A DNA stretch of 64,000 nucleotides from Watersipora subatra (lineage: Eukaryota; Bryozoa; Gymnolaemata; Cheilostomatida; Watersiporidae). Both the position numbers and the translations under genes were made by a program. How positions within the stretch are numbered: position 1 is the stretch's first letter; each line of letters starts with the position of its first letter. Below the pieces are notes generated by a model that made no database searches, was not told the origin of the DNA, and worked only from the letters and a program-made list of their open reading frames with translations. The DNA lies in NCBI RefSeq assembly GCF_963576615.1, contig NC_088711.1:3658001-3722000 (forward strand), written 5' to 3'. Positions 14,201-63,985 of this stretch are shown here, one piece after another.

Positions 14201-17200
14201 AAATAGCTAGCCTACCAGAAGTAATTATTATTGTGATCTAGCTCAAGTTATTGAGATAGATGTTAGTGCGTATTGGTCTTTTACTGCCCAATACATGACA
14301 GTATAAATTGGGACTCATGGGGTAGGTTCTTAAGAATATACCCCCTGAGAATGTTGGGATGGCGAATCTTTGGAATGTTGGATGGCGACAGGGAGGAAGA
14401 AGGAACCTCTCGGAATTGCGGAAATATTTGAAGCCAGTCTTGAATAAACACCTGTAGTGCATTTTAGACAGTTTTACAGACAAATGATGTTCGGCAAAGC
14501 AGTAAATGCTATCAGTATAAATGCAGGTACTGTAAAAGAGATTATTCAAGTAGGCAATCCAAAATTCTGGAGAAATATTTTTGAACCAAATCAATTATTA
14601 CAATCCATCGTTTTTTTGGCGTCATCAAGTCGTTTGCACATGCGCTTGTTCACGAAAAAGCCGCCATATTTGTAGAAAACGATCGTTTTTCTTTTATTTA
14701 CTAGTACTTTTAGGTGTTTTGATATTATAATAAAAAAATTGCAAACAAAAGCATCATTTTCAAAATATCATTGCAAAAGCTTCATGTTTTTAACGATAAA
14801 ATTTTCTATAAAGATTGCCGACAACGATAAAATGACGTCACGAAAAAACGAAGGGTAGTTATATTGATAAGTAAAAGAATCGATCAATTATTACAATAGC
14901 ATTTAAGATTAGCAATAAAATTGATTGCTGTTCATTTGATCTTTTTAAACAAAGCCCTCATTATCCAAATAGAATTTGAGGACTTGTGCCGACTTGACGC
15001 TTTACTTCAAGTAAGGCGTTATACAATGCAATAACAAAAATAAATAATTACAATGCAAAAACTGTGCATAAGTTCTTTACTCTCAGAGGAATTTCGATAA
15101 AAGGCGATTTATGTTATATAAGGTGTCTACTATATTGTTCTCTGTAACCGACCATTCAAGTTCATGGATATATTGCATAGGCATAATTAAATTAACAAGG
15201 GAGCATACCATATACAGTGAGTATGTATTTAGTTTAATTGCAGCGCAAGGGCTACTTTAATGAACCCTACACTGCCATGATTATTTATTATGCTAAGGTT
15301 TGTCTTTCGGTTAGACCTAATATTAGCAGGACCTAAAAATATTCTTATCTTGAAAAGCTAACTAATTATGTAGTGTCAATTGCAGTCTTGGCCTCCAACA
15401 GAAGTGACGTTTCACTGTTTTATAGATAAAATGATGTAGATATTGTGCTCACTTTATTTAGCTCCAACCATGTATTTGTGATATTCAGAATTAACAAGTA
15501 CACATCTGACTGCATTGCACAATGCATGTGTGTGACACATTATAATACAAAAAATCACTGGGGAAGTTTTGTGAATAGATTGGAATGAATGTAGACTGGG
15601 TTCTATAACAGATGAGAAGGAAAATTAAAATTGTCAAAAGTGAGTATCAATGCTTTCGGAAAGAAATTAGTATATCACTGAGAGGAATACTTATTGACGT
15701 TAGTTTATTATTCATTCCATTACTTTTTAAAGTTGATCCATGTAAATACAGCACTTCTGTAGAGATCCACTCTTGCATTTTTTGGAAAGCGATTTGGCGT
15801 TTTGAAAAGAGATTCCAATCTACGCCAGTTTCGTGATGGCTGTGATTAACTGTTTATTTTTTAGCTTTTAAGAGCTTTTAATCGCATGTCCATATCTTTT
15901 GCACCTACAACACAACAGAGTAAGACATGGTGAATCTTTTGATTCCAAATAACTGTAATGTGAATTTGGTTGCAAGTCAACCTTTAAATGATTGACAAAA
16001 TCAAATGGTGTAGGCATTAAATTCAACCGTATCACCATTCATTCCAGTCTAATAATATTCAACCCAATATAGCTAAGGTATATTATTGTTATTGTAGGGA
16101 ACACTAATAAAAGCATTGGTTCACTTGATGTAGCTAATGACAGAAGGTTAAAAACTAAAAGCGTTTTGACTTGATACAAAAAAGGAGTAAATGAATATTT
16201 GTCTTGTCTTCTCACCGCGCTGAAACATGCTCACCGCTGAAACAGACTTAAGAGCAGTCCATAATTTGTGAGCCAATTGATGTAAAAATTATAGTTTGTA
16301 AATATTCTAAGAAAATCCTCTAAACTCGCTTGCTTTTTATCAAAATAAACAATGCTGCTGCTAAATCAAAGATACAACCGATAATCCTCACCTACATGTA
16401 TATAAGCTCTGAGAAACAATGAGTTGGTTTATGTTTATAGTTTTCAATGTAGTAGACTCGCAAGCTAAAAATTTGCTTTTTGCTGTTCTATGTTGTGACA
16501 TTGAGTTTACGTTACGCCATCAACCGTATCGAACACTGTAGAATACACTACATACAAACCTTTGCCGGAAAAGGTTCTCGATGTTACTATGATTAGGCAA
16601 GAACTTGGGCCGGATGAGGTCAATCCGTTGTACAATTTATGGCCCTGCTCTGGCTTCTTTTTAGTTCAACTAATCAAATCTCCTTAATTGACTTGGCAAC
16701 ATTTAGTGAGCTCAAATGCTCCTATGGTAAAGTTATTTTTGTCAATGCTGTCATTTCTTGCAACACAACCTTTTTTTTAAATTTTACTGTCAAGCTCACC
16801 CAGATTAGCACCATTACATGATGCAAAAATGCATAGAACCTAATTAAAAACACTTTCTTGCGCTATAAGTTTACAGTATATTTTGTATAAATAAAATCTT
16901 GACATTGTGTTCAAGGAACTTACACAGGCATGCAAAGCTGACTTTAAAATAATCACTCTGTGGTTGCCATCTCTCGCTGCCTAATTGCTTAGCTTAAGTT
17001 ATCTGTGTGCATAACTGCTCATTACATAAACAGAAAAAAGAAACTTGTACAAAAAGCTTAACTGTCCTCCTTCAGATTCTCTGGCTCGTCATCTGACCAG
17101 CAGTGCCTCTGAGCGCAGCTGCGAGTCAGGACTGACAGAATCGAGCATCGCGTCAAGCAATAATGGACGAGGAAAGCCAGGTTGGAAGTGTTCACAGTGT

Positions 17201-20200
17201 ACGATGGCTTTTGTTTCAAGCTCATTGTTAGTCAGTCATGTACACAGTACACACAGTGATATGAAGGCTGGTGAGATGATGACTTGTCCCTTCTGCACTA
17301 AGAACTTTCCTACGTTTACCCAGCTTGGTAGGCATCTTTTATATATTGATGCAAGATTTAAGATTGGAGCAAACTGGTGTAGGTAGCGAACGTTTCCACT
17401 GCTTGCTGAGGCTGAAGATGTCAGGGTGTGCCGTAGTCGGATGGCGTCAAACTTCGACATACTAAGTTAGATTGTCAGATTTATATCTTGTGTTAAAAAC
17501 ATGGTTGAGGGAGCAAAGATTCTTGTAAGAGTCCAATGTATTTTGGTTACCCTACAGGATGAAAATATTCGATGGATTTAATAACTCGCGATTTCGCAAA
17601 CAGGCGATTCCGCGAATTATTAAATTTCGTGAATAATTAGTTCTATTGTTAAATACAAGGGAGAATAACTACTGTCGCAAATTAAAAACTAGTCGCGAGG
17701 TAGAAGTAGTAAACATAGCCGAGTTTCAGATTTTTTTTAAAATCATTGCCGGAGATTTAAGTTAACCCCATTGCCAATGCATCACACTTCTTTACAAAAT
17801 TATTCAAGTTTGTCAGAAGTTATTCGGAATTCGGCACAGCATCTTCATCGAAAAAAAAATGCTGCAGTTCTTTACGTTCAAAAAACTCAACTTACCACAA
17901 GTTGTTGGTTCACCAAAGGCCTCCGAACATTCATGAAAACCTTTGGATGAAGCCAAAAATTTATAGCTTAGCATGAATTATGCTTAGCTTATGAATTAGC
18001 TTATGTATAAATATATTATAATTAATTACAAACATGAGTGTACAAATACCATATTTCAAATACAAATTAAATTTTGCAAACAATGAATGGAGTGAATAAA
18101 AACAGTTTGGCCCTTATGGCGATTGCCTGGCAATAAAATTAAACTGCTACTCTCGATAAGTAAATACTAGCGGGTAATGGTGCTCCCCGACTAGTTATTT
18201 TGGTAATAGCGTCACTGTCTTGGGTAGATGTTGAAGGCGATTCTCTCGCCACTACATGGCTGGTAAGGCAGTTATCATCAGAACTCTCCTCGTGGCTTAC
18301 TATTGCAACGTTCAGCCAGTTGGCCAAAAATTTTTGATCGTAAAGGCATTGTTCCTTTTAAAAAACATATTCTCCTCGTTAGCAGCTACCGTCACTTCTA
18401 CCTCGATTTCAAGACCTCCCTGAATGATTGGTGATATTCTAGGAATGACATCCACCACACTTGCAGTCATTGTGCCTCCGCGTATGATGAAAAAGCTGCT
18501 TACTCTACTTATTTCACGGGGTAGATGACCAACTGTTGAGCAGTCTGCGTTTATTAGCTTTATTGAAAATGGGTCGTGCAGATTATTGGGCTCCTCTCTC
18601 GCACTAAAATGAATAACGAAGCGGTAAGGATGGAAAAAAATACTGTATTGCGTTTTACCAAAGAACCAAAGTAAAATTATTAATTTGGTAAAAGGTTTTG
18701 AAAGAATCATTACTTGCCACAAGTTTCAGGTCGGTTCATCAAAGGCCTCCAAGGTGATGAATATTCGTGAAAACCTCTGGGCGCAGCAAGAAATTTATAG
18801 CTTAGCATGATCGACTCATAGTTGTCAGATAAATAGAAACCGAAACACGCGGTGTACGCATGCGAAGGGTTAACTCTATTGCTAGCTGCAATAGAGTTGA
18901 CTCTTAATAGAGAGTGATTGCGTTCATCCGCGAGTAAATTAGTCCACGAATATGCATGAAAAAAGTGATTTTGCGAAACTTAACTCCGCAAATATATTCA
19001 TCCTATAGGGTATTTATTCTACAGCGACAGAAACTTGATGATAAGTACTTAAGGTATTTATATATAGCACTAAAATACGTTACAGTTGTGCTTCTACTTA
19101 CGACTCTTACCATGCGAGAAACTCGAGATACGAGCTGAGTTTCGAGCAAGTTTCTTCCTTGATATACGAGTAATCCTTAAGACATGAGCTGGTTGTCGAT
19201 GGCCACCATATGGCCAAGTATGTGATGTACTCGAATCAGTTTGAAAACAGTTTTTAAAAGGTTTGCTAAAAGTTATAGTGAACGCGAGGCAAAAAGTGCT
19301 CAGCCAGAAATAAATGCTAAAAAATACAACGCTAAAATTTAAGTAAGTTTTGTAAAAGATTAAAACTTTTCTTCAAGTGCGTGTTTAGCATGCTAAATTT
19401 ATTGAAGTTAAACTCAAAGTTTTTATTACATCGGGTCACAAAAGTTTAATGTACCGAATCTGTTGCTCTCAAGTCTCTCAGGCGGCCGTTTTCAACAACA
19501 TCTGTCTAGAAGGTAAAAACTCCATTCGATAGTGTACATAGTGATGTTAAATTTTATTGCAGATCATAACAACTAAATATGTATTGAAGTTACTGAATCA
19601 CAGCAAGTAAAAGCACATTTTTCCACTGTAATATCCTGTTTAGGTTGTGTTTTTTATAGTGTGGTAACGGATTAATTTGTACTTAGTGCTTTTATGTAGG
19701 AAATCAGTCTCAGAATGGATTAAGCTCGTATGTCAAGACATAACTGGATTGAAAACTATGTAAAAACTAATTATGGCAAGCTATGTTATAAGTAATAAAC
19801 TAACTTAACAAAGTAATTATTCTATAAAAAGAGGTTTTTATTATCACATAGCTTTTATTTGAGAAAACAGGTTGTTAAAACAGGTAAATTGAGCTGTGGC
19901 CTTCACTGTTTGAAAGACTCGCAGTGCATGGATAGAAATGGTAGTAGAGGCAGTGCTGACTGTATGAGCCTTAAATCAACATATCTTATTTATTATTTTT
20001 CGGTTTTAATGATGAGGAAACATTTTCTTTTTGTTTTCATACGTGAATTGGTTTTCATGAGCTCCACCGCTATAAAACGGAAAAATAAGAGTACAAAGCA
20101 CTTTGATATCATTCATTGAATATCATCAGGGTCCTTTGACAGCAGATAAGTGCATGAGTAGCAATATATCAGCAAACACCATGGCGTGAAATGTTTATAA

Positions 20201-23200
20201 ATGTTTTTATGTTTTTGGAATATGATAATCAAACTTTTGCTTTGTAACAAATAAGTTTGGTGTATGCTGAAAATGTTTTATTGGCTCGTTCACATGTCTT
20301 CCATAGAGTAAATATCGTGTCAGTTACGCATCACTGAAAGCAACGTGTTAATGATAACTCCAAGCTTCCGGGTATGCTCGAGATTAATAAAAATGTTTAT
20401 GTAATCCACGGTATACATTATTTTAATATATTGTCATGCGTACCCCTTTAGGGTACATGTGCAAAATCTCCCAGCACACGCATAGATATCTGCCACAAAA
20501 GTGAAATAATACTCTGCTGTATCACTCCTCATGAGGATAACTCTATCGCATGTATTATATACCATTTTTATACTATTGGTTTAAACGTGTTTTGTAGATG
20601 ACCATATAACCAAGCTTCACGGAGATGGCAGCCACAGTTGCCAAGGTTGCTATTCCGTGTTCTTGCGTGCCTCACTACTACGAAACCATCAGAGGTCTTG
20701 CAGTGCCTATAGAAAGCATCTACAGGAAAAGAAGCAGGTTTCAAAGACTGGCAGAGGTATTCAGTGTATTTCTTGAGTTTAAATTCGGTTTCGATTAGGT
20801 GAAGGGGATGAGTCACTCTATCTCAGGGTCACTTTCATACCAGCATTTTCCTAAAACAATATTTAAGATACAATTAACACACACAGTACAGTGCACCCTC
20901 AGGATACGGGTACCATGTTATATGATTTTTTTCGCCTTACGAAATGGAACATGATGATTTCTCCACCTCGCCATACTAATCTTATTTCACCATACAAATT
21001 CATCAAAATCTTCGCCCGAGTTCAAGTTTGGCAGTCGATGTGCTTATTACGTACGTCGAAATAACAAAGACACCGAAATGCTGGTCGCCGAAAACATTTT
21101 CACAACGCATGAAAAAAACACCATGACCTATTTCTCTCAGTTCTGCATTTCCCGTGTAAAAAACAGTAATATTTTCCCTCTAAACCGGTATCAAAGTTGG
21201 AGTTGTGATCCTTCAAACAAAAGATCAGTGGTCAGACAACTTCTTTAAACCTGCTAACAAAAATTAACTTATGAATTAAATATGTGGTTGCGTCAAATTT
21301 GAGTTGATCTTAAAAGAAAGCATTTTTTTCTCTATCAGTTGATATGTTGTTTGTTGTGTTAGGCGATCTCATTGCCAAGATATTTGAAGATTAAAATCGA
21401 AAAAATCTGGTTGCCGTAAAAACGCTCAGGCCAAAAAACATGCCCAGACTTGCCCAAAATGATGTCAAGCGTGATTTATCTGTCAATATATCTCGTATTC
21501 ACATCGGCTATTTGCGATAAAACTCTAGTCCTATGCGGCTCTATTGGCATATATTTTATTTTGTATTTGTTCATGTTGGTTAGAATAAAATTTTAAACCC
21601 CGCTACAGATACATTATTATGAATATTTCAAAGGCTTCAAATAACGAAAATTGAAAATTTGTCTTACTCACTTTCTCCAAATGCTGTGTAAACATTTGAG
21701 TACCGACTACCAATTCTACCGGTCTTCGGTAATTCTGTCAAGCAAACTATGTAGAATAAGGTCTTTGTATCAGCACAGTTCCGCCGCTACCCACACTAAC
21801 GATATACAGCCTCCCAAAAGCCCCGCCCACATTATGTCCGTCGCCTATCCTTGGGGCGGGCTGTATATCATTGCCAACGCTGAAAACTAGTTTCTTACTA
21901 CCGTAAGTAAAATAAGCAAGTTGCGTCTTTGAAAAGCATATACATAGGGATAGAGTTTTAAGGATGAGAAGTCTGCTGCAAACTGGATTTGAACTCACAC
22001 TCTCCAGTTCTGCGGACATCCATATACTGTATCCAATTCACTACAATATTCTGCAAATCATGTTTTGCATTATCTTCAACAATATAATTTTATTATATAA
22101 TTTTTATAAGCAAAAAGATTTTCATCTCGGCATAAAGCTTTTATTAAAATATTCATCAAGTCGTGGCCACTCACGTAGTTTTAGCTGATACAAAAAGACA
22201 AATTCATCTACTGCAAAAACTCAAACAAAACATGGTTTATGCAGCACACATTCAAGTCTCTCTTTCCCCTTTATGGCAGTTTCCACACTGACAAAGCTGA
22301 TTTGGCTGGTGGGACGACAAACATCCTGTAATCAGTAAAACACATGCAATAAATATATGTCATTCATAGATATGTCATTCTAAAGCGTATCTACTGAAAG
22401 CTTTCAAATTGGGAGTTTGATAGATTGCGAGTGTAATTTTATAAACGAATAAATGTTTAACAAAGGCACAATATGCCAAGCCAATGATTCGAAGCTTTGG
22501 TTCTGGAAGTTAAAGATTTGCATTGATCAATCCATTTTCTTCACTTTCTACAAGTGAAAAGTGAACATCTAAAGTCAAATCATAAATCTAATTTACTAGA
22601 TAAAACTGCCACAAAAATTTTGAAGCAGATGTAGCTAGGTGAACCGATAAAAAAACATAAAACGATGATTAGTGATAGCAAAAAGTTATAATTTTATTAA
22701 TTAGTACATGCATTAATGAGTAGTAAAATATTACCTTTAGTATATTCATCAATCTAAGCCATTGTATTGCTAGATGCTAAAGATTAAAAAGAAGCCGTCA
22801 AGAACTCACTGTACATACGTATCTCGCACGCGCAGGAAATTACATTTTAGCCTCAAACAGGGAAATATAATCTGAATGTAAACTCAACAGGAAACTCTAT
22901 AGGAGACTCAAAGTAAAAGATAAATTTACCTCCATTCTCCGATCTTCCTCCGTAGAACTTTAACTACCTGATGCCAAGAAAATTCGGAGCCACCTTCGCA
23001 GTAACTTTACAGCAATTTTTACAATTATGTTGTTCACCAATAAAACGTGTCGATCGAGTAATTCATTAAAGTAACGATGTTAATTAATTTAGTAAATATC
23101 GATGTCCATGCGATTTAATAATCGAGTAAAATCCCTATATTTGAGATCACAGACAACGCGTTTTACGAGTGATAACATTTATTACGGCCTATATAAAAAT

Positions 23201-26200
23201 TTCGCGCTGATGATTGGCTAAGGAAGCGACCTCATATTTATCGCTCGTGGTTTCTTTTCAGATATATTGCTTGTGACGTCACGAAAGAAGCACCCGCTGG
23301 AACGTGAGCTTTTTAAAAGAGGGCCTCATTCAAACGCATATATCTCTGGACAGGGTTGGTCTACAAAGACAAAAATGCCATCAAATTGTAGCTGATGTTT
23401 TAGCCTTTTATGGGTCTTAATTTCATTAAATCGAATTTTTTGACGCAACCACATCTTTAAACAGAACATTTTTGAAAACAGCATCACTCAAGCGGTCTCG
23501 GTTTTATTGAGGTCTGCTAAAAGTCAAAATGAAGCCGGAAACTGATAAATAATAAAGTTTTAGTGATAAAAAGTTGAAGTTCAGTAAAATACTTGAAAAT
23601 ACATACTAAAACTTAGCTTCAAGTGTGTGCGTTTAGTAAGCTAAACTTATTTAAAGTGAATTCAAAGTTTATGCTATACGTACGTCTGTCCTGAAGGTAA
23701 GAACTCATTACGGTAGGTACTGCACATAGCACTTACCGCAAATCCTAGTCAAAAAATACGCTAAAGTTGCTGTAGGCATTTATAGTGTATTTATAATAGT
23801 TGTTAACTACGGTTAACATACTATTTTGTTTCAAATTTTTAATGTGTACAGTACAGTGGAACCTCAGTTCTCGAACGCTTCGGTTCTCCACCAATTTGGT
23901 TTTCGGCCAAAGATTTTGAGATTTGTTCTTCTCGGATCTCGAACATAAATGCGGTTCTTGTCCAAACCTGAGCATGCGCATTGAAATTGGAACATCTCCG
24001 GAAACGGCATGAAAACATTCGTTAACAAACGGAGAAGCAAGTTACGCTTCATAAATTATTTACAAAAATGTAGAAATCATCTGAGACGACGTCTCCTTTA
24101 CCGAAGAGATTTGCTAGTGAGATAACCCCTCCAGTCAAGTTACCCTAAATTGTTTTGGAGGATTCTCCTTCAAAGATGTGAAGTAAACGAAACGTGCCAT
24201 TGCTGTTTATAATTTTCTTTCTTCTACGATTTTTGATGTAACTGATCTGTTGCATTTTTCTGCTGTTTCATTATCAATTTCTGCAATTTTTCGTATTGTA
24301 GCTTGACCTTTAATGTTTTTGATGTTTGAAGAGCAAAACATACAAAATGTTTACTTTTGTTTTTTTTTCCATCATCATAAATGGAAAACCTTTTATTAAA
24401 ATTAAACACGATCTATATCTACCCATTTTTATTTTTAGTATACAATACAGTTTATGGTGTAAAATTTTGAAAAAATACTTTACCAAAGTTGTTTTCTCAC
24501 CTTGGAACGGATTAAAGTTTACATACGCTTATTCTAATGGGAAAATTGTTTCGGATCTCGAACAACTTGGTTTTCAAACAACCTTCTTGAACGGATTATG
24601 TTCGAGAACCGAGGTTCCACTGTACTCATACAAAGTTTTGATGATTTTTACCTGGGATGTTTGCATTATATATTTACTATGGTTTCTATACTCCTCTATA
24701 CGATTTTTTACTGTACGATGTCAACCTGGGTGCGGATTAAAATTGTATCCTGAGCGTGCACTGTAATTGTATCTTACATGAAAATTCATTGTTCCTGATT
24801 TTTTCATTTTAAGGATTTCTGGATTCTCGGCATTGTTTTGCGTGAAATCATATATTTTTGCTTACTTATTCTTCTGTATATACACTACATGTACATGTAG
24901 TGTATATACAGAACTGTTCATAAACTGTGTACATGTACATGTATGTGAACATTTGGTATTTCTTCATTGAATTGGTTGCATTTTAAAGCTGACTAGGTCA
25001 TTATTAAACATTTTACCCCGTCAGAAACATTGAATATCTCATCAGTGTTAGTGCATAGTTCCCTGCATTCTACTGTGTCCGTTTTAGCCTTTCCAGACGT
25101 TGTAACATATACTAGCCCGATTGCACATATAGGAGGAACTAGTTAGCGCTTGCTTTCACTTACTCTAAAGGCGATGTTCACAGTGCATTAATAATTTAAT
25201 TCAGATTATTTGACCATCATTTGTACACCTAAATCTCCCAGTTTTCGTTTTTATGTGTTTGTAGATACTGGTTCAAAAAACGTTTGTACACACTGTCTTC
25301 TCAGTCTGCCCGATGAAGATGCTCTCTCACATCATATTCAACAATGTCGCACCGAATGTCTGTCTAAAAAATATAACTGTGAAGGCTGTCTGGCGGGCTA
25401 TGACGTTTTGATATCCTTGTTCACTCACCAAGCCGACTGCACCCTTTTCTCCAAGATTAGCTCTTTGAGCTCGGACTATTCAGTAACTCTCAGGTGCATA
25501 TCGTTTCATTGCCAACTCTTGTCAAACATTGTAGTTTATATGAATTCTTTAAGATTTTTCTAGTATTTTGCATGCATTTTATTTCTTGGGAATCATAAAA
25601 TACTTCGTTTTAAAGAGTAAATTTGTATGTTGGTTTAGACCATTTTTCTTTTAGGTGTCAAGGTTGCAATGCTGCTCATTCGGATTTGGCTGCATTTTCG
25701 AACCATAAAAACGAATGCAACAAGGTCCAAAACTTGAGAGATAGGGAGTTAAATGAAAAAATTCAAGTGAAACAGACTGAAATATGTTTACAACCATTGC
25801 GCAATAGTGAAGATGAACCAGTTGGCCAGTCACCAGCCACGAATACCTGCTACCAATGTCTTGAATGCGATCGTTCATTTGCAAATCAGGACCTGCTGAA
25901 TAAGCATAGACAGAACATGCATAACATTGTCGACTCATGTGCGTTTAAATGCAGCGGATGCAATGTTGGTTTTTCAACTGAATCGGCCTTAGATGTTCAC
26001 TACCAGTTATGCAGACAATCGGAGCCCATTGAAAATTTATACGAATGCCCGGAGTGTTTAACAAAGCTGGAGTTTAAAAGTCTTCTAGAATTCCACAAGT
26101 CAATACACGTTGATCCTGAGGCAAAGCCATTTAAATGCTTTGGCTGTAATGGAGGATTTACTGCTGCTACCCATAAAGCTAGTCACGAGCAGAAGTGTGG

Positions 26201-29200
26201 CAAGTGCAAGTTGTTAAGGCAGGACAGAGCAAGAGTCTCAACTTTAGATAAGAGCGCTTTCAAGTCATCTGAGAATAAAGGAATTACTCAAACTTCTCCA
26301 TCCACATTGCCTCATGCTCAACGGTGCCACTCTAAGTTTCAATGTAACCAATGTTCCAACGAGTTTGTTTATTTTTGTGATTTGGATAAGCATAGCTGTA
26401 TCCAAAAGGAGACTGCAAAGGATGGGTCAGAATCTTGCCACAGTTTGACAGATTCAAATTGTGAAACTGATATGGATGATACCATCATATCAGAATTTTT
26501 GCGAACTGTAGACTATTTAGCCCTTGAAATTCTTTGCCCAATCTGCGGTATTGAGCTGAAATACCAGCAAGACCTGTCTCGAAGTGCTTTAAAAAAGCAT
26601 GTCACTAGACATTTGGTCGGTCATGGAAAACAAGTTATCAAGCGGGTATCATGTCCTGGCTGTCACTGGGGCTCCAGCTACCCTAGTAGGCCGCACTATT
26701 TAAGGCACACCAATCATTGTCGTGTAATCAAGGAAAAGTTTCCATCAGTGGAGTTCAATAAGCAAGTTGTCCGGTGCCCCATATGTCTCGTTAGATTTTC
26801 TAGCGTTCCACAGTGTGCTACTCATTGCGCTGAACATCACATCAATTCAACAAACCATTCAGAGAAGATTTATATATGTGAGGGTTGTAGTGCTTGGTAC
26901 AACAGTGAAATGGCTCTTCATGAGCACCAATCTGAGTGTTTTCTCTATCCACGAGCTCTCTCTGCTGCAGGAATTGGTGTTGCTTGCGGGGTATGCAGCA
27001 TAAGGTTTGCTAAAAGAGAAAAATGTGAAGCTCATATCTCACAATTTCATAAAATTTCTTCAAATTCTTTCATTTGTGTGTTTTGCAACATGGTATTAGA
27101 GACACTGGATGGCTTGATAGAACATGTAAATACAATTTGCCCCCTTGCTCAGTCAATTAGTAGAACTGGTCATGAGGATATGCGCATTGATAAAAAGCTC
27201 AACAAGGCAAAGGTTGCTATGCAAAAACAGGTGGATGCCAAAAGTAATTACATAGATGATGAAAATACAAATAAGGCAAGAACTAACCAAAAAAGTAAGT
27301 TGAAACCTTTGCGAAGAGGATGGGTGCAATGCAAAATTTGCTTTGCCAAATCGAAAGCCAGCGATTCTGAACAGCATGCACTTATTCACTCGCAAAAGGA
27401 ATTGAGACCATATCGATGCAAAGTGTGTGATGGGGGATTCAATACAACCGGAAACCTTCACAACCATCAGTTTTACTGTCAACGTAGGAAATCAATTGTT
27501 GAAGATCTACCAGATCTACCAGCTTCACCTGATGTTGTTTCTGTTTCACCTTCACAAAGTCTGAATTCAATAGTAGACGCGTCTCAATGTAATAATGAAT
27601 TAACTTTGCCACGACATGAAGAATATTCAAGTTTTGCATCGCCCACAATGCTTTGCGATGCTGAAGCCATTTCATCACCTGTCCACACACAAAGTCCCAT
27701 CGATGTGCCTGCTAACCTGGAAATTGGTGTAGTACAGGGAGAGAGTTCATTCATCCTCACTTGTGATTTTTGCAAGAAGACATTTGACACAACCGAGCTA
27801 ATGGCTGAACATTTAGTAAATTTTCATGGAACAGCAGGTCTTGTTTGCTCCATATGTCTTAAATCGTTTACATTTGAAGAGACCCTTACTGAACATCTGC
27901 TGCACTGTAATGATGACTCCAGTGGTGGTGTCGTGAATACTTGCAAGGAAGCCAACACCACAGAGAACCAAGGTCAAGGGAATGATGAGGTTAGCGCATA
28001 ACACATAAAAACTTGTTTTCTCGAACTGGCTGCAAGGTGTCTTCTCATATCAAGTCTGTTGTCTGTTACAGCTGTTACTGTCTGTTGTCTGTGTTGTTAT
28101 AAATGGTGCAATTATACTGATTGCTGTTTGTTTGAAATATTAATACATTCACTGAAACTTTTAGGTTGAAGAGTGGAAATGTCTAAGCTGTTGCATCAAA
28201 TTCACCAAAGAGACCAACTTTCTGCTGCATATTGCCAGTCATGAAGTTACAAATGTAGGCAAGTGCAGTCTCTGTGCAGCGAGCTTCAAATCAGCTGCGG
28301 ACATTTGCATGCATATGGTTAAGTACCACAGGAACTTCCTCATGAATGGTACGAAAGAGGGTGGATCACAAGATGATAGCGATAAGGTAATGAAGAATGG
28401 TTCTTTAATGGCTGTAAAGAGTTCTTAGTTTTTATTTACTGCTAATATGCAAGTTGGAAGCCTACTTAGTGTACTAGCTTTATTCTTGACATTAACAGGC
28501 TTATAGAGGCAAGAGTACAGTTCTATTTTAATCCAAGGCTACCTTTTTGCTGTAGCATTATTCAGTTAAACTCATTTCTTTCTCTCAGTAATTATTAATC
28601 TGACCTGGCTCGAATATCATTTCAAGCATGACATTCCTATTATTTTTGTTGTCAGTGATTATTTTTTGCCCTTGATAGATGAGCATACATTACTGACAGT
28701 TCCAATGCATGCAAACACACATATGTGTACACATAAATGTCTTATAAAGTAAATTCATTGTATGCAGACTAATGCCGAATTAACAATTTCACAAGTTTCA
28801 ATTACCCATAAATGTTAACTTCCAATTTTCTAACCGAGGAATTTGTCCGCATTCAATATGAAATTTGAGGAAATATTTCGGTTGATGCCCAAAGCAAATT
28901 TTCACGAAACAATGCAGTTTTATTAATAACTACAAAATGCCCGGCGTTGCACTGGTATCAGAATAATTACCCAGTGAATTTGAGTAACTTAGCTAGTAAC
29001 TTATAATAATGGCTGTGAAGCGTCATAAAGCGTCGTAACGGCATGACGTTACGGCATGATGGCCGTTTCATGACGTTACCCCGCGTCAAGACGTTATCGC
29101 GTGTCAATGATGCTAGTATTTCGCAAGCACTGCATAAATATGTACCCAATTATTACTTAAAGGTTGACTTGCAACAAAATTCACATTACAGTTATTTGGT

Positions 29201-32200
29201 ATCAAAAGATTCACCATGTCTTATTCTGTTGTGTTGTAAGTGCCAAATGTGTGGAAATGTGATTACAAGCTCGTAAAAGCTCAAAAACGAAAAGCGGCCG
29301 TAGATTGGAATCTCTTGATTTCGATGAAGTCACGAAATGTGGTTATCGTCTTGTCACGTATGTTCTTACGTGAATTGAAAGGCCAATATAAAGCTCAATA
29401 TAAAACTTATCGTAGTACTCGTTTATGACAAACACTTCGGGTTTTACCGAAGACCCCGTATCAAATATAGATGCTCGCTACTTTACAGTTTTGTTTCGGC
29501 ATTATTCAATCATCAAGTCGTTCTCTGATCATGTGACCCAATACTTTGCAAATAATTTTTGCAGCATTTTTCGATTATCACAGGTGACTAACAGGCTCGT
29601 CATGATTATCAGACAATGATATGTACTCCTTCGAGCTAAGGTTATAAGTAAGTAAGTTATAAGATATCACTGCTAAAAGTGACAGCATTGCAATGACGAT
29701 GAAACAGACGCGTAAGAACAATATACGTAGTTTTATTGAATGCGTGAAGAATATTTGTGAAAATATTTCGACGAATAAGGTTGCAAGAAAGTGTAAACAG
29801 AAACCATCTCTCACAACTACATCACATTAGAGCCGTTTTGGAAAGGGAGTCCAAACTACGGCGGTCTCGTGTGGCTGCGATTTTCTGTTCATTTTTTAGC
29901 TTTTAAGAGCTTGTAATCACCTTTCCACATATTTTGCACCTGCAACACAACAGAGTAAGACATGGTGAATCTTTTCATATCAAATAACGGTAATGTGAAT
30001 TTTGTTGAAAGTCAACCTTTAATATTGTCAATTTAACGTGTAGTGTAGTGGGTAGTACTCCTGTCTGGAGATCTGGAGCTTCCACGTTTAAATGCAGTGC
30101 CAAGCAGATTTTTTGTTCCTAAAACTTTTCCGCTGTAACTAGACATCGGGATGACAAACACTGAGATATATATATACCAGCCGAATGCCCGGCGTTGCAC
30201 AGGCATTAAAAAACAGCTTAAAAACAACAGTGGCAGTTAATGTAGTTGCTATTGGCTAATTTGAGCAAGCTAGTATACATGGTAGTTAACTTACTAAGAA
30301 AAGCCGGGAGAACAAGCATTGGTGATGTTGGTATGCGTATGTTGATGTATGCATATTTAACTCAGATAATGACTATCTGTCTAATGAATCCATTGTATCC
30401 CGTGTAGCTTAATGGGTTAGCTTGTCACATTGTGAATGGGAGGTTCTGAGATCAAACCTTCTGCAATACAGATTTTTCATTGTTAGAATTTAATCACTAT
30501 AACTGGACACAGTATGTACAAAAAACAGATAGATAGATTTTTTGGTCTGGTTCAACCGCGCTAAACAATGCTCCATACTTTTTAGTTTTACAATCAGAAC
30601 CCCAAAAGATTAGTGTGAGTGGTAAAAGCAAGGACCAAAAGAAGACGGGAATTCTTTCCTTAGAATTAGGGCAAGAACTATAGAAAGCATAGGCAAAGAT
30701 TTTGAAATCACTTTAAAATTCTGTATGAATGAGTTTAGTAGTGAAAGTGCTGCCAATAAGAAAGTCTGAAATAAATGGAGAAACTGGCTGTGATAGTTTA
30801 AGACATATATTGTATGTCTTATGTTTTTATATGTAAATATGTTCTTATATTTGATATATGTAGCATATATCAAATAAAAGAACAAATAATATCAATAATC
30901 TCAGTTAATTTTAAGTTCCCCTAGACCAAGTTAGGCCAACTTCGTATCTCTATCACCACTTCTAACTGCAGTTTCTTAGTTTTACGTGGAGGTGATTTAT
31001 TTCTGTTATAAATGTCACAGTAAAAGAAATCCATTATTTTCAAGTGTGTTACCAGTTTTGGTCTCGGGCCTACTAGAAATGATGACTTGAAATCCGTAGA
31101 CTTGCTCTTAAAATTTTGACCTGAAAACTTTTTTCTTTGCTATTGAAGGACTCTGATGATGATTCCGATGTAGAGCTCCAAAGTGTGACATCCAAAGCGA
31201 GCTTAGCACAAACAAAACCCACATCAACGGTGCCTGAAAAAAGCCCTAAATCAGCTCCTCTGAATAAAGTCGTGGCAGGGAGTTCAATTTCCTCAGCTGT
31301 TACTAACGACAAACGCTCAGCTCCTAGCAAGCAGAATGAATATGCTAGAGCAACTGTAGCAGATTTTAAATATCATTGTCTCGTTGGCACTAAGTGTCTT
31401 GTCTGCAACAGGAATTTTGCTTCGAAAGCCATTCTGAAAAGGCATTATGGCATTCATGATGGCTACTACAATGCTGTCTGTCCCATTTGTGGTATTGGCT
31501 TTTGTAAGCGAACCATGTTGCGCAAGCACAAGGTCAGAGTGCACAGGACGGCTAAGGCAACGGACAGCACTTGCAGCCGCTGTGGTGGAGCATTTGAGCA
31601 AGAATTCAGACTTAAAAAGCATATGGAGGTCTGTATTTGTCCCAAAAATGATTCTGTTGTGCAGTGTTTGCAATGTGTACGCACATTTGACACGTGGCAT
31701 CAGTTGAAGGGCCATTTATGGACTCACATTAACAAATGCACCTATTGTGATGAGAAGATCTCTGTGCAGTCCAAACGTGTGGATCACATGCTATCATGTG
31801 TCAAAAACCCGCTCATCACAGGTTAGTTACAACTTGCAGATCTTGTCAAGATATTTCGCTGTTACAGCTTCAATGAAATTTACTGTATGTGTGCCGGTTG
31901 ATGTCTTTGAATCTGATCAGTACTTTGTGTTGAAGGTGAATGTCTACCTACTTCTGTCAAGACAGTTGTATCTCCGCCTCAAAAGCCATTGCAAAGCAAA
32001 GCTGCTCCTAAGTCTACGAAGAAGATTCCGGAGAAGAACTTCAAGTGTAAGGAATGCTGCAGTGAATACACAACAATGAAGGCACTAAAGAAGCATGAAG
32101 TAGTCCATGAGCAAGCGGAATATAGGTAAGCCTTATCACTTCATTCTAGGGTAAGCTTTGGTAGATGAAAGTGTGCGGAAGAAGCAGCCACGCATGATTT

Positions 32201-35200
32201 TATACACGCTGTTTATCTTGTCATCTCTCTAGCAAGGTTTTGTCAATTGAAATTTCATGCGTTTGCCTTGTTATTTATTGTTATTATTATTTAAAATACT
32301 TAAAGGTTGACTTGCAACAAAATTTACATTACAGTTAATTGGTATCAAAAAGTTGACCGTGTCTTACTCTGCTAGGTTGTAAGTTCAAAATATGTGGAAA
32401 TGTGATTACAAGCTTTTAAAAGCTCAAAAGCGAACAGTTAATCCCAGCCATCAAGGAAACGCCATAGGTTGGAATCCCTCTCCAAAATGGCTCAAATTGG
32501 ACGTAGTTGAACACGATGCGCTTCTGTTTACACTTTCATGCAACCTCATTCGTTGAAATATTTTCACAAATATACTTCACGCATTCAATAAAACCATGTC
32601 TATTGTCCTTAAGCGTCTTTTTCATCATCATTGTAATGCTTTCACTTTGAGCACTGATATCTCAAAACCTAACCTAAAAATTAGTTGGATTTTTTAACCT
32701 TAGCTCGACGGGGTGCATATCATCCTCTGATAAACATGAGGAGCCTTTTGGTCATTTGTGGTAGTCAAAAAAATGCTGCAGAAATTGTTCGCGCCGTTTA
32801 GCAGTAAGTATGGGTCACATGATCAGATTACGATTAGATGATTAGACCAAGCTTAAACAAAATTGTAAAGTAGCGAGCATTTATACTTGATACGGGCTTT
32901 CTGGTAGAACCCGAAGTGTTTGTTATAAACTAGTGCTACGGGATGTTTTATATTGAGCTTTTTATTTCACGTGATAACATCACGTCAAAACAATAACTAC
33001 GTCGAGTTGAGTATGTTATCAAAATAAAGGGATTCCAACCTACGGCGTTTTCGTGATTGCTTTGATTAACAGTTAGTTTTTGAGCTTTTAAGAGCTTGTA
33101 ATCACGTTTCCTCATATTTTGCTCCTACAACACAGCGGAGTAAGACCTTTTGATACCAAACAACTGTAATGTGAATTTTGTTGCAAGTCAACCTTTAAAA
33201 CTTGTGTTTGTTTCAGGTGTCGCGTCTGCGGAGGCAAATTCTCATCGCTGCTTGCTAAGAACAGGCATATACTCAGGGAACATGAGTCTAAAACTAGGAT
33301 AATAAAGGCTGCCCCGAAAGAAGAGCCGAAGGTGGAACCAACCGAGACTGGTACTTGGAACACCAATTATAAATAGCTTGAAAAACATTAATCCTCGCAA
33401 AGCAAATGTCTCAGGAGCAAGTAATACTTCGTTAAATGTTTTTCGTAAAAGGCCCTCTCATTAAAAAATATGTGGCTCCTAGGTCACAATTTGTGAACTC
33501 CTGTGCATAAGCCACAATGAAAATACAGTGCGCCCCGGGTTATGATTTCCCTTTTGAACGATTTTTTCTCCTTATGATGTGGAACACGATGCTTTTTCAT
33601 CTCCGCCATACTACATCGACGAAAATTTCTCTTGAAATTCAATTTTGGCAATCAGTGTCCTGAATAATAACGAATCACGTCATAATAACGAAGATGACGA
33701 AATATGCTATTTGATGAAATCCTTTCCACAACGCCCGAAAGAGATATGATGCTCTCTCGCTCAGTTCAGAATTATTCGTTATAGTGAAAACAAAATCGGA
33801 AACGTATAGGTGATGGAATTTTAGACAATGCTAAAGTTTAGTAAAATACATACTGAAACTTAACTTCAAGTGTGTGTTTAGTGAGCTAAATTCATTTAAG
33901 TTAATTTCAAAGTTTATGTTATACGTCTGTTTTGAAGGTAAGAGCGGCTGACAGTACGTACTACAGATGGTACGTTGTAATGTTACATTTTATTGCGGAT
34001 CATAACCATTAAATACACTAAAGTACTGTAGGTAACTAAGTTACTAAGATTAACATTATATTTTGTTACTAGTTTTTAATATGTGAAGTATGTATGAAAA
34101 TAAAATTTTGATTTTTTATTACCAGGTGTTTGTATAAAATAATTTACTATGGGTTTCTATATGACATTTTCGCCTTACGATGCCAACACTGGAATGAACT
34201 AATGTCGTATGGCGCGGCCCGCTGTATGAGTAAAACTGCATTATAACAGCGATGCAGAAAACATGCAGTTGCCTAATCATTCTTTATATCATCACTGGCA
34301 CAGAGCCAATTAGATTTTTAATTTCGTATCGAGTACAGTGCACCCCTCAGGGTACGATTTTGATCCGTTCCAGGATTTGCATCATATAGTAAAAAAATCG
34401 TATGGAGGGTTATAGAAACCATGTTATTTTACAATGCAAACATCTAGTGAAAATCGTCAAAATTTTACAAGTGTTGTAAATATTAAAAATTAGTAACAAA
34501 TTAATATGTTAATCTTGTTAGTTATAGTTACCGACAGGAACTCTATTCTATTTAGTGGTTATGATCTGCAATAAAATGTAACATTATAATGTACCATGTA
34601 CGGTAAGTACCGTAGGGAGTTCTTACCTTCAAGACAGATGTATGTATAACATAAGCTTTGAACTCACCTCAAATAAGTTTAGCTTACTAAACACAGACTT
34701 GAAGCTAAGTTTTAGTATGTATTTTTAAAGATTTTACTGAATTTCAACTTATTACTAAAAAAAATTTATTACTTAACAGTTTCTGTCTTCACTTTCGCTA
34801 TAACTTTTAGCGGTCCTGTTTAAAAACTTTGTCAACCTAATTCAGCAAAAACCTCGAACAATGTTGTCTTCGTAATAAAGTGGTTTTTTGTTAGCAGGTT
34901 AAGGGAAGTTGTTTGATCACTGAATTTCTGTTTGCAGAGATCGCAACTCTAATTTAGCTACTGGTTTTAGAAGGAAAATGTTATCATTTTACAAACAAGA
35001 ATTTCTTAACTGAGAGAAATCGGTCATCGTGTCTCTTTTAGGTGTTGTGAAAATATTTTCCTTTAGCAGCATTTCGGTGTCATAAGCAAACAGACTGCCA
35101 AATTGGAACTCGGGTGAAAATTCTGTTGAATTCGAATGGTGAAATAAGATTCGTATGGTGAGGTGAAAAAATCATCATGTTTCACTTCTTAAGGTGAAAA

Positions 35201-38200
35201 ATTGTATATCCGGGTAATCGTATTCTGAGGGTGCACTGTAGCTGTCAAAGGAACGATTTGCATCAATCACCAATGTCGTTACGAAACAAATTTGAAAAGA
35301 CAGCTAACTCATTCTCGATCACTTTTAAGAGTTTTATTTTTTTGACTTTTTTAGAACAGCTATTTTTTAACAGTTGGTTGCTGGTTAAACAATTGCTTAG
35401 TTGTGGAAAAAATTTCATTATGGCATTTGGTTCTGACTGTTTTTGATAAACCATACATAGCTCATCTGATTGTTATGGGACCAACTTGGGAGCCAGGTTT
35501 ACAAAAATTTTTACTAAGTCTTATTTAAATATGTGTTTATACTTGGGTGATCGATGACATTATTATTTTTAAGAAGCCCTTTTTTCAAAGACTGAAGGAG
35601 TGTCCTCGTGTGACTTGTCTAATTAGGAAATCATTGGCATCGCCAAGAATCAGCAAGAATGTAGCTCGTTGAAGCGGCAGAGTCACTTTTGATTGCCAAT
35701 TCATTCAAATCGTAGCCAAGTGTATTTGCTTTCCGTTATCAGATCACTTGAATAAATGTTTTTGTCCAAAACATACCTAAAAAGTTGCAAATGAGTGCAT
35801 TCAATTTTTCAATAATTAATAATTAATTATTAGTAAAGAATCAGTAAGTACTAGATAAAAAAACAATTTGATGATAAATTATGGTTTCCACAATATCCAA
35901 CTTGTCAGATCGGTATGAAAACACTATTTGCTGAAGGTCAACTGGTCATCATGTGCCATTTCTGTCAAAAATAGGGAATTTTCAAAACTCAATCGTCAGT
36001 GTAAATCGTCAGTGTCATCATCGGTGTATATCGTCAGTGTCATCATTCTCCTTATGACCGTCATGACAGATATTGTTGAGGTGTTCGAATATCAGTTGCA
36101 GAGGAGCCGCGACAAGAAACCTTCTACATGTGCACTCTATGCAATCGTGTGTTCAAAGACACAGAGACCAAGTTGCAACACATGAGGGATGCTCATGGTA
36201 TGGATGCCCCAAACAATAGAAAATTGATTGACTGCAGACATTGCGGAAAAAGGTAAATCGACAATATTTGGCTGAACATAATGTTGTTAAAATTTTTATT
36301 GCTTATTCGGCCTATATATTGTAGGCAAGTCCTACTTGTTGAATTTTCACAGCTGTGTTCTACCATATGTGGTTCACCCTCATATACAATTACCCTGATA
36401 TACAATTTTTCACTTACTAAGTGGAATGATGATTTTTTTCATCCTAACCGTATGAATCTGATTTCATCACACAAATTCAACAAAATTTGCACCCGATTTT
36501 AAATTTAGCTGTCGGATGTGCTTATTACGTACGTTAAAGTAACAAAGACACCGAAGTGCAGTTCGCCGAAAATATTTTCACATCGCCTGAAAGAGACATG
36601 ATGATCTATTTCTCTCAGTTCAGCAATTCTTGTGTGTAAAACAGTAATATTTTCTTTAAAACCAGTAGCAAAGTTGGAGTTGCAATCCTTTCAAATAGGT
36701 CAGTGGTCAGACAACTTCCCTTAACCTGCTAACAAAAGTCCATTTCATTCCGAAAACAGCATTATTCAGGTTTTCTTGCCGAAATATGTTGAAAAGGTTT
36801 TAAACAGGTCTGTTAAAAGTTATAGTCAAATCGAAGACAGAAACTGGTAAGTGATAAATTTTCAGTGAAAAAAAGTTGAAATTCAGTAAAATAGTTGAAA
36901 ATACATACTAAAACTTAGCTTTAAGTGTGTGTGATAAGGAAGCTAAACTTATTTGAGGGGAATTCAAAGTTTGTTATACGTACATCCGTCTTGAAGGTAA
37001 TGCCCTACGGTATGTACTGCACATGGTACATTATAATATTACATTTTATTCCATATCATAACCACGAAATATGGTACAATAAAGTTACTGTATGTAATTA
37101 TATTGTATTTCTTTAGCATTCTCTTTCTAATCTATAATTAGCTGCCGTCGTCTATGTTATTGTTGGAAAGTGTAGGCAGCATCAACTTCTTAGTAATAAG
37201 AGGATCTCTTTGTAGAACTATTCTTCCAGCTTTGTCTTAATGCAACATTCCCTAGCGGATGATATTATTCGATAAATTCAAAAATTCGTCAATTCGCAGG
37301 CAGACAATTCCGCGAATAGTTAAAATCCACGAATAATTAGAGCTGTTGGTATTTTCCTTAAAGGTTGACTCGCAACAAAATTCACATTCCAGTTATTTGA
37401 TATGAAAAGATTCACCATGTCTTACTCTGTTGTGTTGTAGGTGCAAAATATGTGGGAATGTGATTACAAGCTCTTAAAAGCTCAAAAATGAACAGTTAAT
37501 CGCAGCCACACGAGACCGTGACAAGACAATAACCAAACTGTAATGACAACGTCAGAGAAATAAAGAGATTCCAATCTACGGCGGCTTTTCGTTTTTGAGC
37601 TTTTAAGAGCTTGTAATCACATTTCCACATATTAGGCACCTACAACACAACAGAGTAAGACATGGTGAATCTTTTGATACCAAATAACTGTAATGTGAAT
37701 TTTGTTGCAAGTCAACCTTTAAAAGAAAAGGGGAAAATAACTACTACATAAAATTGATAACTAGCTGGCAGGCGTTGTCAGTAAACATAGCTGAGTTCCA
37801 ATTTTTTTGTAACCTTTGGGGGGGTTTAAAATTGCACCCATTGCTAATGCACTGCAATTATTTACAAAATTATTCAAAGTTGTCACAATGTCTTCAAAAT
37901 TAAGCATGTCGTCATCAAAGATCGCTTTGAATCACTGTGACATCACCTCCAACAACTTCTAATAACGAAGCTGGTGACAATGATGATTTTGATTTAGACA
38001 TGGTATGTATTTGATTGGCAGATACAATTACATGTAGAATAAAAAGTCATGCATAAAGTTAAACATGTGCTATACGCATGTGAAGGTTTTAAACTCTATT
38101 GCTAGCTGGATTCAGGATTAATTTATTCGTGTATGTGTTCCTCCCCGCATAAAATATTCCACAAAAATACATGAAACGACTTTCACGAAGTGTTACTCCT

Positions 38201-41200
38201 TGAATGATGTTGTCCTGTAGGGTAACTAATTAAAGGTAAAATTTTATGAAGCTTGGTTACACCAATCATTCTTCAGCATCTGTCCCTGAAGAATGATTGG
38301 TTTAACCCAGTCTGTCGCAGTTATCCATATGTCTTGACAACGAAGCTGTGTAAACAGAACATGCAGTTCAGAGGAGAACAAAATACATAAGCTGTATGCT
38401 AAGTTGAAGGTTAGTAGGACTGCCACAAACCTCTGACTTGCCTTGCATAACTGATGTAATTTCAATGATGAAATTATCTGACTCTTTGATTGGCTCTCGC
38501 ACTTATTACTAAAAAATAAGTGTTGCCACATGAAAGATGGATAGCAATTTTAAAGCAGTCATTTGTTCTTCTTTCTCAGGTGCTGAAAAATAGCGTGGCA
38601 TGAGTGGACTGACATTTGCCAAAATCTGTTATATATATGCCACCTAAGTCTTCCTTTTTCATGATGTGACAACTTCCCATATTAATGGCTGACCGCAGTA
38701 CTTAGTACAGCAGTCAGCTGTACTAAGTACAGCTTGGCCTTACAGTGCGCCCTCGGATTACAATAGCTCTGTTATTATAATTATATTCAAAACCCTCAAA
38801 GAACAACAAATGCATTAGTCGGAGCATTAATTTGTTTCAATTAGTTCAGTAGTTAGTCTGCTACAGGACTTAATGACAAAACTTAATAATTTTCATTGAC
38901 CTGTCTCATTGTTCATGCCATTAAAAGTTGTTTCACAAAAAAATCACTTGATATAAATGAAGTTGTCTACCCTGTAACCATGTAAAATGTGTATACTCCT
39001 GTCGCTGTCACACCTTTGCCCCCCCCAAATGGTTGGGTACTTATTTGCTTATGGTAGGTTAAGTTTTTTATTTGCAGATTTCCTACCAAGTTTGCACGTA
39101 GGCGGCACCTACAGACAGCACACTCTGGATCAAACTCACAGCCCCAAAGCCTTGTCTGTCATCTCTGTACCAAGAGATTTCCTTCCAACTTTGCTAAGCT
39201 GCAACATATGAAGAAGGTAGGATCCTGTAAAATTTTATAAAGTCCCCAATTTCACCGCCTTTCTCCCGAGCCCCTTCTTCTCACCCCACCTCTCCCAAAC
39301 ATTCCTTCTCAGCCCCACACCCTCCTCACAGCCCTACTCTCCGCGCCTTCTCACAGCCCCACTTTCCCGCGCCTCCTCATAGCCTTTCCTGCACTCCACG
39401 TCCCACCTCATAGCCTCACTTCCATGCGCCACCTCACAGCCCCACTCCCACACGCCACCTTACAGCCCCACTCTCATGCACCTACTCAGACTCCTCACCC
39501 TTAGTTCACAGTGTAAAAGTAATCATTTTGAAAAAGAGAAGTAGGAAATGTAGTTTTGCTAATAAGCAATTCTTCATACTTCTTGAGGTGGCTAGTCTAA
39601 GTCTACGTACACAATGGAATGTTGGTGAGAAGGCTAGCCACTCTTCCCTCTATCCCTCTAGATTCATAAGCTGACGGAGAGTGAGCTCGCCCCGAGGAAG
39701 CAGAAAGTATGTAAAGTGTGTGGTGAAACGTTTGAAGGGAAAAGTGAGTTGAAGGCGCATAAGAGGTCTGTTCATTCACAGTTGATTATGAACAACAGCA
39801 TAGACCTAGCGCCTGATATGCTCCTCTTAGGTGATGCTTCCTCCAGTGATCTCGGTGAGTCTACAGTATTTGCTGCCAACCTCGCATCGATACAACGAAC
39901 ATTAAAATTCACCATAAAAACACACCGCTAACACGAAAGTGTCGTTTGCTTATAACACAAACATTCTATGATGTAATAAGAATTCATTATAAATCATTTC
40001 AAATCTGGTCTAGTCATGTCCAAGTTTGATATACAAAAAAGCAAAAAAAAATATTTAAACAGCTTCCTGTTAAAGCTAACTTTCTTTAATTACAATAGTA
40101 GTTGGAGAATGATTTAATAAAATTCTTAAATATTTACCCTATACAAAGAAGTAACCTTCAAACTGCTTTTGATCCACTTGAAGTTGCTATCGCTGAAGTC
40201 AACGTAGGACCGAAAGACTCTTATTTTTTATTTACTCAAGAATAGACAAATATTATCTAGCCAGAGAATCATATTTCAACTGAAAGAAAACATACATTTC
40301 AAAGTAACATGACTTGATATTTTGATCAGCCGTGAACGAATGCTAGCTTCTTAAATTTGGTTACAACTTTGCTAACTAAAGCTTATGCCAAATGTTGTTC
40401 ATTTTTATTTGATGAAACAGTTTTAGAATGGCATTCTGGTGGCTCACAACTGTTTTCAATTTGACTTTGTAGGTGTTTTTAAACATTTTTATTGGTTTGT
40501 GGCTAAGTTTGATGCATCGTATATGAAATCCAAAGTTAATCTGTTCGTTTGATTTCTTTTTGCACATTGTTGCTAGCTTTGACTGATGGCTACAACAACA
40601 CCTGGATTTGAGATGCATGCCGGCACATCAGGCAATATAAGGTTAAAAAATACCTAATCTCAGCAATGATCTCTTTATAAAACGTCAAAAATTATTGTTA
40701 AGGAATCTTAGAGTTTAGGCCTAAATCTTAGAGGTTTAGGCTGGTAATACAGACAATCATGTAGATCTTTGGCCTCATCTAGCTTACAATTTATCAACTT
40801 TTCTATTTTTGTAGTTACTTTTTGCCACTCTAAAATTCTGTAAAAACAATCAAATGTGCTGGAAATTTATAAAAAACAATTCACTGAAACTAGATACCTC
40901 ATAAAGTTTATATTAATGGTTTTTAAAGTGATAGTATTTTATTGTATTTGTATATAGAGCGTCAGCAATTGTGCGCAAGACAGTGTGTGCCAACAATTGC
41001 GCCCAAAACAAATGAGCACAGTAACATTTGAGCATAAATTCAGACATCAACTCTCTCTCTGTTATTCCTTATTTCATCATTCACTCACTGTTACAAGCAT
41101 TTGGTGTTAAAAAAGAAGGGATTGTCTTAATCTTCATTTGTTAATAAAATATATTTTATTATTTAATGTATTAAATATTAATATGTTTTAAATTTTATTG

Positions 41201-62886: not shown

Positions 62887-63985
62887 TACAGTACATGCCC
62901 TACAACGTAAATAATCCGGTCCAAAATGTTTACGATGTAAGGATTTCACGTTATCCCAAGCATAAAATGCATGCAAATAGGCTAATACGTTCCAAAATCC
63001 TCCTAAACGCACTCTATTGGCCCTTCTAGACAAAAATAACTAAACTTAACTCTTTAATTTAACGACAGTAAAATTGTGGTGTTATTGGTTTGTATCAACA
63101 AGTTCTCTTTGTTTCTTATTATTACACTTGGTCCAGGGTCCATGATAACCATAATTTGATTAGGATTAATTTAATTAATCTGAGTGCACACTTTTGATGT
63201 CAATTCAACTCAATTCTGTTCACATTTTTTCACCACAAAGGTCCATGCTGCAAGAAGAAAACCATTGTATATGTCTAAAATGTAGTAAAAAAAAATTTTT
63301 ACTATAACAAAAGCGGTGTCTTTTTATTCATCCGAAACCAAAATTAAAGGTAAGAATAAAATATCACTTTCAATGAGACTCAAACTCGTGACACTCAGTT
63401 GAGTAGATCGAGTTATAACATCTGTACCTATCAACATAGTTATAACATCTGTACCTATCAACATAGTTATAACATCTGTACCTATCAACAGAGTTATAAC
63501 ATCTGTACCTATCAACAGAGTTATAACATCTGTACCTATCAACAGAGTTATAACATCTGTACCTATCAACAGAGTTATAACATCTGTACCTATCAACAGA
63601 GTTATAACATCTGTACCTATCAACAGAGTTATAACATCTGTACCTATCAACAGAGTTATAACATCTGTACCTATCAACAGAGTTATAACATCTGTACCTA
63701 TCAACAGAGTTATAACATCTGCACCTATCAACATCAACCACGTTTGAGTTTTTCAAATAATTTAACAGCCACTTATTTTCTGTCCTTCCACTGTAGAGAG
63801 AAAATGATATTTTCAAAGCAAACTATGGAACTCTCGTCACTTAAATCCACTTTGAAAACTTGCACCAACTTGATGCTTCTATATAGATATCCTATGTAAT
63901 ACGATGCAAAAACTTAACATCAATGCTTTACGTCAAGTGGAATTTACATACAAAAAGTTTGCATTACAGGGGCATCTACTGCATA
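62887..63985. mobile_element. Family A TIR element with internal minisatellite, about 1.1 kb
   Basis: The left end TACAGTACATGCCCTACAAC and the right end 'aggggcatctactgcata' match the 12874-13757 copy. The interior aligns ('tttcaatgagactc.aactcgt.aca'), but here carries a 27-bp array. Confidence 0.8.
63411..63735. repeat. 27-bp minisatellite, 12 copies
   Basis: The unit is AGTTATAACATCTGTACCTA plus TCAACAG; the first two copies end ACATAG. Because 27 is divisible by three, it opens long frames on both strands, which are not proteins. It lies next to the tRNA-like box of the host transposon. Confidence 0.96.

Follow-up and report, generated by a model that had tools for sequence, protein, structure and literature searches.

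Short-linked clusters of C2H2 and C2HC zinc fingers, mostly pairs, in a 37-finger protein of the bryozoan Watersipora subatra

Introduction

Paired zinc fingers are known and so are C2HC zinc fingers, separately, in SALL, basonuclin, FOG and finger 11 of CTCF. A two-finger alternation has been published for ZFY, which resembles the protein described here in its alternating two-finger repeat but differs in that both fingers are C2H2. We know of no family with the present combination of fingers, and our searches of open-licence papers listed none.

By analogy, FOG-1 would be the most apt precedent for such C2HC fingers. It combines classical C2H2 fingers with C2HC fingers, in which the last His is replaced by Cys, and no direct binding of it to DNA is known (PMC11913303); four of its fingers bind GATA1 (PMC11913303, PMC3927085). 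Both finger classes thus occur in one protein, as they do here. Unlike our 37 fingers, the nine fingers of FOG/ZFPM stand in the order C HHH CCC H C (H for C2H2, C for C2HC) without regular pairing. SALL/Spalt proteins share with our protein the separated pairs and the presence of a C2HC finger, but the pairs are said to consist of C2H2 fingers that have an H/C link and, in the second finger, a Sal-box (PMC5892016), and their C2HC finger stands by itself at the N-terminus. The Sal-box FTTKGNLK was seen by eye in none of our 37 fingers; F19 resembles it only in part (FNTTGNLH). Basonuclin carries multiple separated finger pairs (PMC13304701); these are three, described as C2H2, compared with 37 fingers here, 14 of them C2HC. 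In CTCF, a C2HC finger, the last of 11, closes the array (PMC8084297), but CTCF has one long array with TGEKP-like linkers and this single C2HC finger. Finally, in the tandem CWCH2 units of ZIC, GLI and Zap1 two fingers form a structural unit with a non-TGEKP linker (PMC2837044). A unit of this type requires, in each of its two fingers, a Trp between the cysteines, which is found in 0 of our 37.

Here we analyse a finger gene in a 64,000-nucleotide stretch (the window) of the Watersipora subatra genome (784 Mb, 239 contigs), for which a strict two-finger repeat had been predicted.

Results and Discussion

The gene model comprises 14 exons on the plus strand from 17076 to 51722, where the stop codon ends. 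All 13 introns are GT-AG, and a single open frame is kept across every junction up to the stop. The product as found has 1736 amino acids; N-terminal exons are missing and the 5' end was not found. The exons are the following:

17076-17327 and 20598-20756, plus strand: exons 1 and 2 of the 14 found, AG before and GT after, open frame
25265-25493, plus strand: exon 3 of the 14 found, AG before and GT after, open frame
25655-27989, plus strand: the big exon, fourth found, with F6-F21 including the alternating run
28165-28386, plus strand: exon with the pair F22-F23 (H H)
31149-31821, plus strand: exon with F24-F28 (H H C H C)
31936-32125, 33217-33350, 36102-36252, 39078-39216 and 39662-39854, plus strand: exons with F29-F34, all C2H2, mostly basic
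42043-42254, 42940-43181 and 51641-51722, plus strand: exons with the single C2H2 fingers F35-F37 and the stop

The last exon (51641-51722) has AG before it but no GT after it and ends in the stop. Introns split F2, F32 and F33, and in each case the joined exons restore a complete finger, which supports the gene model. The original prediction had placed the pattern at 25655-31821, and these positions hold: directly after an AG, the big exon begins at 25655, and 31821 is the last base before the GT of what it had numbered exon 13. Its exon 11, the big exon, is the fourth in our model, with three exons found upstream.

Several further features were seen in the window. Copies of a repeat with inverted ends lie at 29156-30022, 32299-33207 and 37357-37722, with arms of about 120-140 nt that are 85-93% complementary within a copy; the repeat looks like a non-autonomous DNA transposon. 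Some 10 bases separate the end of its middle copy from the exon at 33217. Three neighbouring exons (39662-39928, 42043-42254 and 42940-43181) encode similar fingers, with KSELKAH, KSELKAH and KTELKAH. The frame past the donor at 39854 resembles the exon at 42940 (ESTVFAANL versus ESTAFASTL), and these exons may therefore be tandem copies that have alternative ends. Six long tandem arrays were recorded (10371-11258, unit 47 bases; 41783-41975, unit 21; 42406-42729, unit 47; 46361-46924, unit 56; 47669-48831, unit 61; 63410-63733, unit 27), three of which sit within introns of the finger gene model. Exons of a separate protein kinase gene lie at 53091-55551, the closest PDB entry to a kinase exon being myosin light chain kinase family member 4, followed by twitchin and DAPK. 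Additionally, 59426-61300 holds a Ser-rich open frame of 625 residues with no Pfam match.

The gene encodes 37 fingers, 23 C2H2 and 14 C2HC. In order they form the groups HHC CC C HCHC C HC HC HC HC HC HH HHCHC HH HHHH H H H. Those up to the end of the big exon are located as follows:

17189..20701, plus strand: F1-F3, cluster H H C, F2 split by an intron
25285..25718, plus strand: F4-F6, all C2HC, a pair CC followed by a lone C2HC finger
25857..26198, plus strand: F7-F10, H C H C, with linkers of 9, 11 and 9 aa; F7 (CLEC) starts at 25857
26343..26399, plus strand: F11, an irregular finger (CNQC...HSC, H-x1-C) at which the alternation breaks
26535..27908, plus strand: F12-F21, five consecutive C2H2-C2HC pairs with 15-94 aa between pairs
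27846-27908, plus strand: F21 (CSIC), the last of these

Odd spacing is also seen in F12, F13 and F18. F6 (25656-25718) and F11 (26343-26399) both end in Cys and stand alone, with no C2H2 finger nearby to pair with, which gives the impression of pairs whose first finger was lost. In SALL the lost partner is likewise the first finger (PMC5892016).

The fingers belong to a well-known type. Indeed, Pfam zf-C2H2 (PF00096) scores 33.8 bits on the big exon and 45.3 bits on the exon at 31149-31821, above the cut-off of 25.2. A predicted model of F9-F10, made with 11 other pairs as alignment (pLDDT 92.6, pTM 0.72), suggests a classical fold in which each finger, the C2HC one included, consists of a helix and two short strands; the model speaks to the fold of the single fingers. 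Matches in the PDB are ordinary fingers, none with E <0.001.

The pairing pattern is nevertheless real. From CLEC (F7) to CSIC (F21), where the fingers had been claimed to alternate, the order is H C H C C H C H C H C H C H C. Alternation is thus confirmed for 13 of 14 neighbouring pairs, the sole break being F11, which the original prediction did not mention; the alternation also resumes as claimed, at F25-F28 (H C H C). When all 37 finger types are shuffled, the best 15-finger window gives a scan-corrected p of 0.006. The longest alternating run covers 12 of the 37 fingers (p 0.005), or 16 of 36 (p 0.00015) when F11 is left out. For the protein as a whole, the run count does not stand out (p 0.23, or 0.15 when F11 is excluded), because F1-F6 and F29-F37 hardly alternate.

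More importantly, the length of the linkers explains the pattern better than alternation does. All 10 linkers from C2H2 to C2HC are short (3-13 aa), while the 10 from C2HC to C2H2 measure 10-94 aa and exceed 14 aa in 8 cases (Mann-Whitney p 0.0003 for the two sets of lengths); the tests reported here are interdependent and were all devised on one gene after it had been seen. At a limit of 14 aa the fingers group into 12 clusters with at least two members each, 8 of which are pairs. A C2H2 finger opens 11 of the 12 and a C2HC finger closes 9 (permutation p 0.0005), and over seven limits from 9 to 18 aa the p values of this rule range from 0.0002 to 0.006. The tendency of C2HC fingers to stand before long linkers depends on the limit, with p 0.0017 at 14 aa, 0.07 at 20 and 0.15 at 25. 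When the finger types are shifted in a circle, a C2HC/long-linker difference at least as large as the observed one is obtained at 2 of 37 positions, counting the true one. The cluster HHC obeys the closing rule without alternating, and CC, HH (two) and HHHH break it. The alternation therefore appears to be secondary to a simpler rule: it arises because C2H2-C2HC pairs stand in a row. For the predicted two-finger dyad this means that the grouping stands, shown by a property on which the prediction did not draw, but its strictness does not, since HHC, CC, HCHC, HHCHC, HH and HHHH clusters are also present.

The two classes also differ past the last ligand. The knuckle CxGC, said to be frequent in Cys-ending fingers, occurs in 7 of 14 C2HC and in none of 23 C2H2 fingers; of the examples that had been listed for the alternating run, the CQGC ones (F3, F6) precede CLEC and lie outside it. 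Of the three positions that follow the second Cys, at least one is basic in 2 of 14 C2HC compared with 15 of 23 C2H2 fingers (Fisher test on the first 34 fingers, p 0.002). Fisher tests, charges and similarity figures predate F35-F37; the CxGC and basic-residue counts were redone on 37 fingers without a new test. Among fingers with ordinary spacing to the first His, three residues precede the last ligand in 11 of 13 C2HC and four in 16 of 21 C2H2 fingers, so that C2HC fingers mostly end H-x3-C. The mean charge is -0.9 for C2HC fingers, +0.6 for the C2H2 fingers of F6-F22 and +3.4 for those of F24-F34. The middle fingers are mostly neutral or acidic, with F3, F12, F13 and F16 as exceptions; basic C2HC fingers do exist (F3, F13). 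To a degree, the protein thus appears to contain two kinds of finger in sequence.

TGEKP was found in none of the 20 short linkers, two of which are 7 aa long, and the protein lacks the TGEKP-like seven-residue linkers that define a DNA-binding array. As a control, eight ordinary arrays of the same genome (two or more fingers within one open frame) showed Cys endings in 0 of 45 fingers and a length of 7 aa in 37 of 37 linkers; this control is small and partial, because the arrays are near matches to our protein or come from one neighbourhood of a single contig (C2). One search of the genome with the big exon found no close relative. It gave eight further matches, and the seven that were looked at are ordinary finger genes.

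How did the pattern arise, and what are the pairs for? The original prediction implies an ancestral C2H2-C2HC pair that was duplicated many times, giving two finger lineages with separate roles. Similarity within the classes indeed exceeds that between them (p 0.003; 0.028 when the two residues between the cysteines are ignored), a weak signal obtained from 31 of the 34 fingers then found, with F12, F13 and F18 dropped, and 22 of these 31 fingers have a nearest neighbour of their own class. F14/F16, F8/F10 and F5/F15 are mutual nearest relatives, CxGC is confined to C2HC fingers, and the change from CAY to TGY requires two substitutions, so that many independent switches are less easy. But F20 and F21, pair mates of opposite class, are also each other's nearest relatives, no clear period of two was seen in the finger similarity, and cluster types other than the pair are present. 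The per-finger tree, put forward as the test of the dyad, shows no two clades of odd and even fingers, although its 22 columns resolve almost nothing and could hardly reveal them. On this tree of 34 fingers (without F12, F13 and F18, which have odd spacing) the C2HC class needs 10 changes compared with a mean of 10.7 for shuffled labels, 207 of 500 shuffles being as low; when C2HC is held as one clade, p-AU is 0.077 with these 34 fingers and 22 poorly resolving columns, a value that neither shows nor rejects such a clade. Two sets were also defined, one of 12 pairs, each inside one exon (A1), and one of 12 of the 14 C2HC fingers, with F11 and F13 out (A2). Taken together, descent from one duplicated pair seems rather unlikely. 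We see as unlikely, too, that the C2H2-C2HC pair with its short non-TGEKP linker and CxGC knuckle is a true supra-domain, a two-finger unit for protein binding that was multiplied, within a single animal lineage, to form a modular scaffold and whose closing Cys finger lost its DNA contacts.

Two other explanations give the Cys ligand less meaning. In one, the pairs would bind DNA or RNA as the SALL two-finger clusters do, the ligand being functionally weightless. A two-finger cluster of SALL4 does bind AT-rich DNA (PMC9838217), and comparing the pair profile with the PDB brings up many DNA-binding fingers, as any profile of the fold would; yet the middle fingers are neutral or acidic, the C2HC fingers have few basic residues after the second Cys, and no TGEKP linker is present, which makes this explanation quite improbable. 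Alternatively, a finger that no longer docks a next one may be free to swap its last ligand, the pattern being otherwise a meaningless product of neutral drift. C2HC fingers mostly stand where a long linker comes next, and the predicted model suggests that the fold tolerates an ordinary exchange of ligand. Against drift, CxGC and a scarcity of basic residues accompany the Cys ligand, and the 14 Cys endings here compare with 0 of 45 fingers in the ordinary arrays. We hold this account, too, for hardly probable.

The reading that we prefer, with a probability of roughly 0.4, is a FOG-like scaffold in the middle of the protein, built from clusters closed by C2HC fingers, with a basic C2H2 tail that possibly binds DNA. 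The protein would have two zones. In F1-F28, fingers form short-linked clusters, mostly pairs, usually with long linkers between them; an ordinary C2H2 finger opens the cluster, and a C2HC finger with Cys as its last ligand usually closes it and would end the unit, with no next finger docking there. Judged by its neutral or acidic fingers, the missing TGEKP and the long spacers between most pairs, this middle zone looks unlike an ordinary DNA reader. Because the closing C2HC fingers mostly lack the basic residues expected at the DNA backbone, the pairs more probably bind protein partners, and one or more pairs may serve each partner, as in a FOG-like scaffold. The basic C2H2 fingers from F24 on, above all F29-F34, would bring the protein to DNA, and F29-F34 are likely the DNA-binding part. 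FOG-1 itself does not plainly follow the closing rule; its Zf5, Zf6 and Zf7 are all C2HC (PMC11913303).

Conclusion

In summary, we show a gene for 37 zinc fingers, a rule that links finger class to linker length, and sequence differences between the two classes. From these we infer a division of labour between C2H2 and C2HC fingers. Should it hold generally that a C2HC finger comes last in a short-linked cluster, one could predict from the last ligand of a finger where clusters stop and which fingers take no part in reading DNA. The closing rule, if true, would thereby aid the reading of many long finger proteins without a known target.
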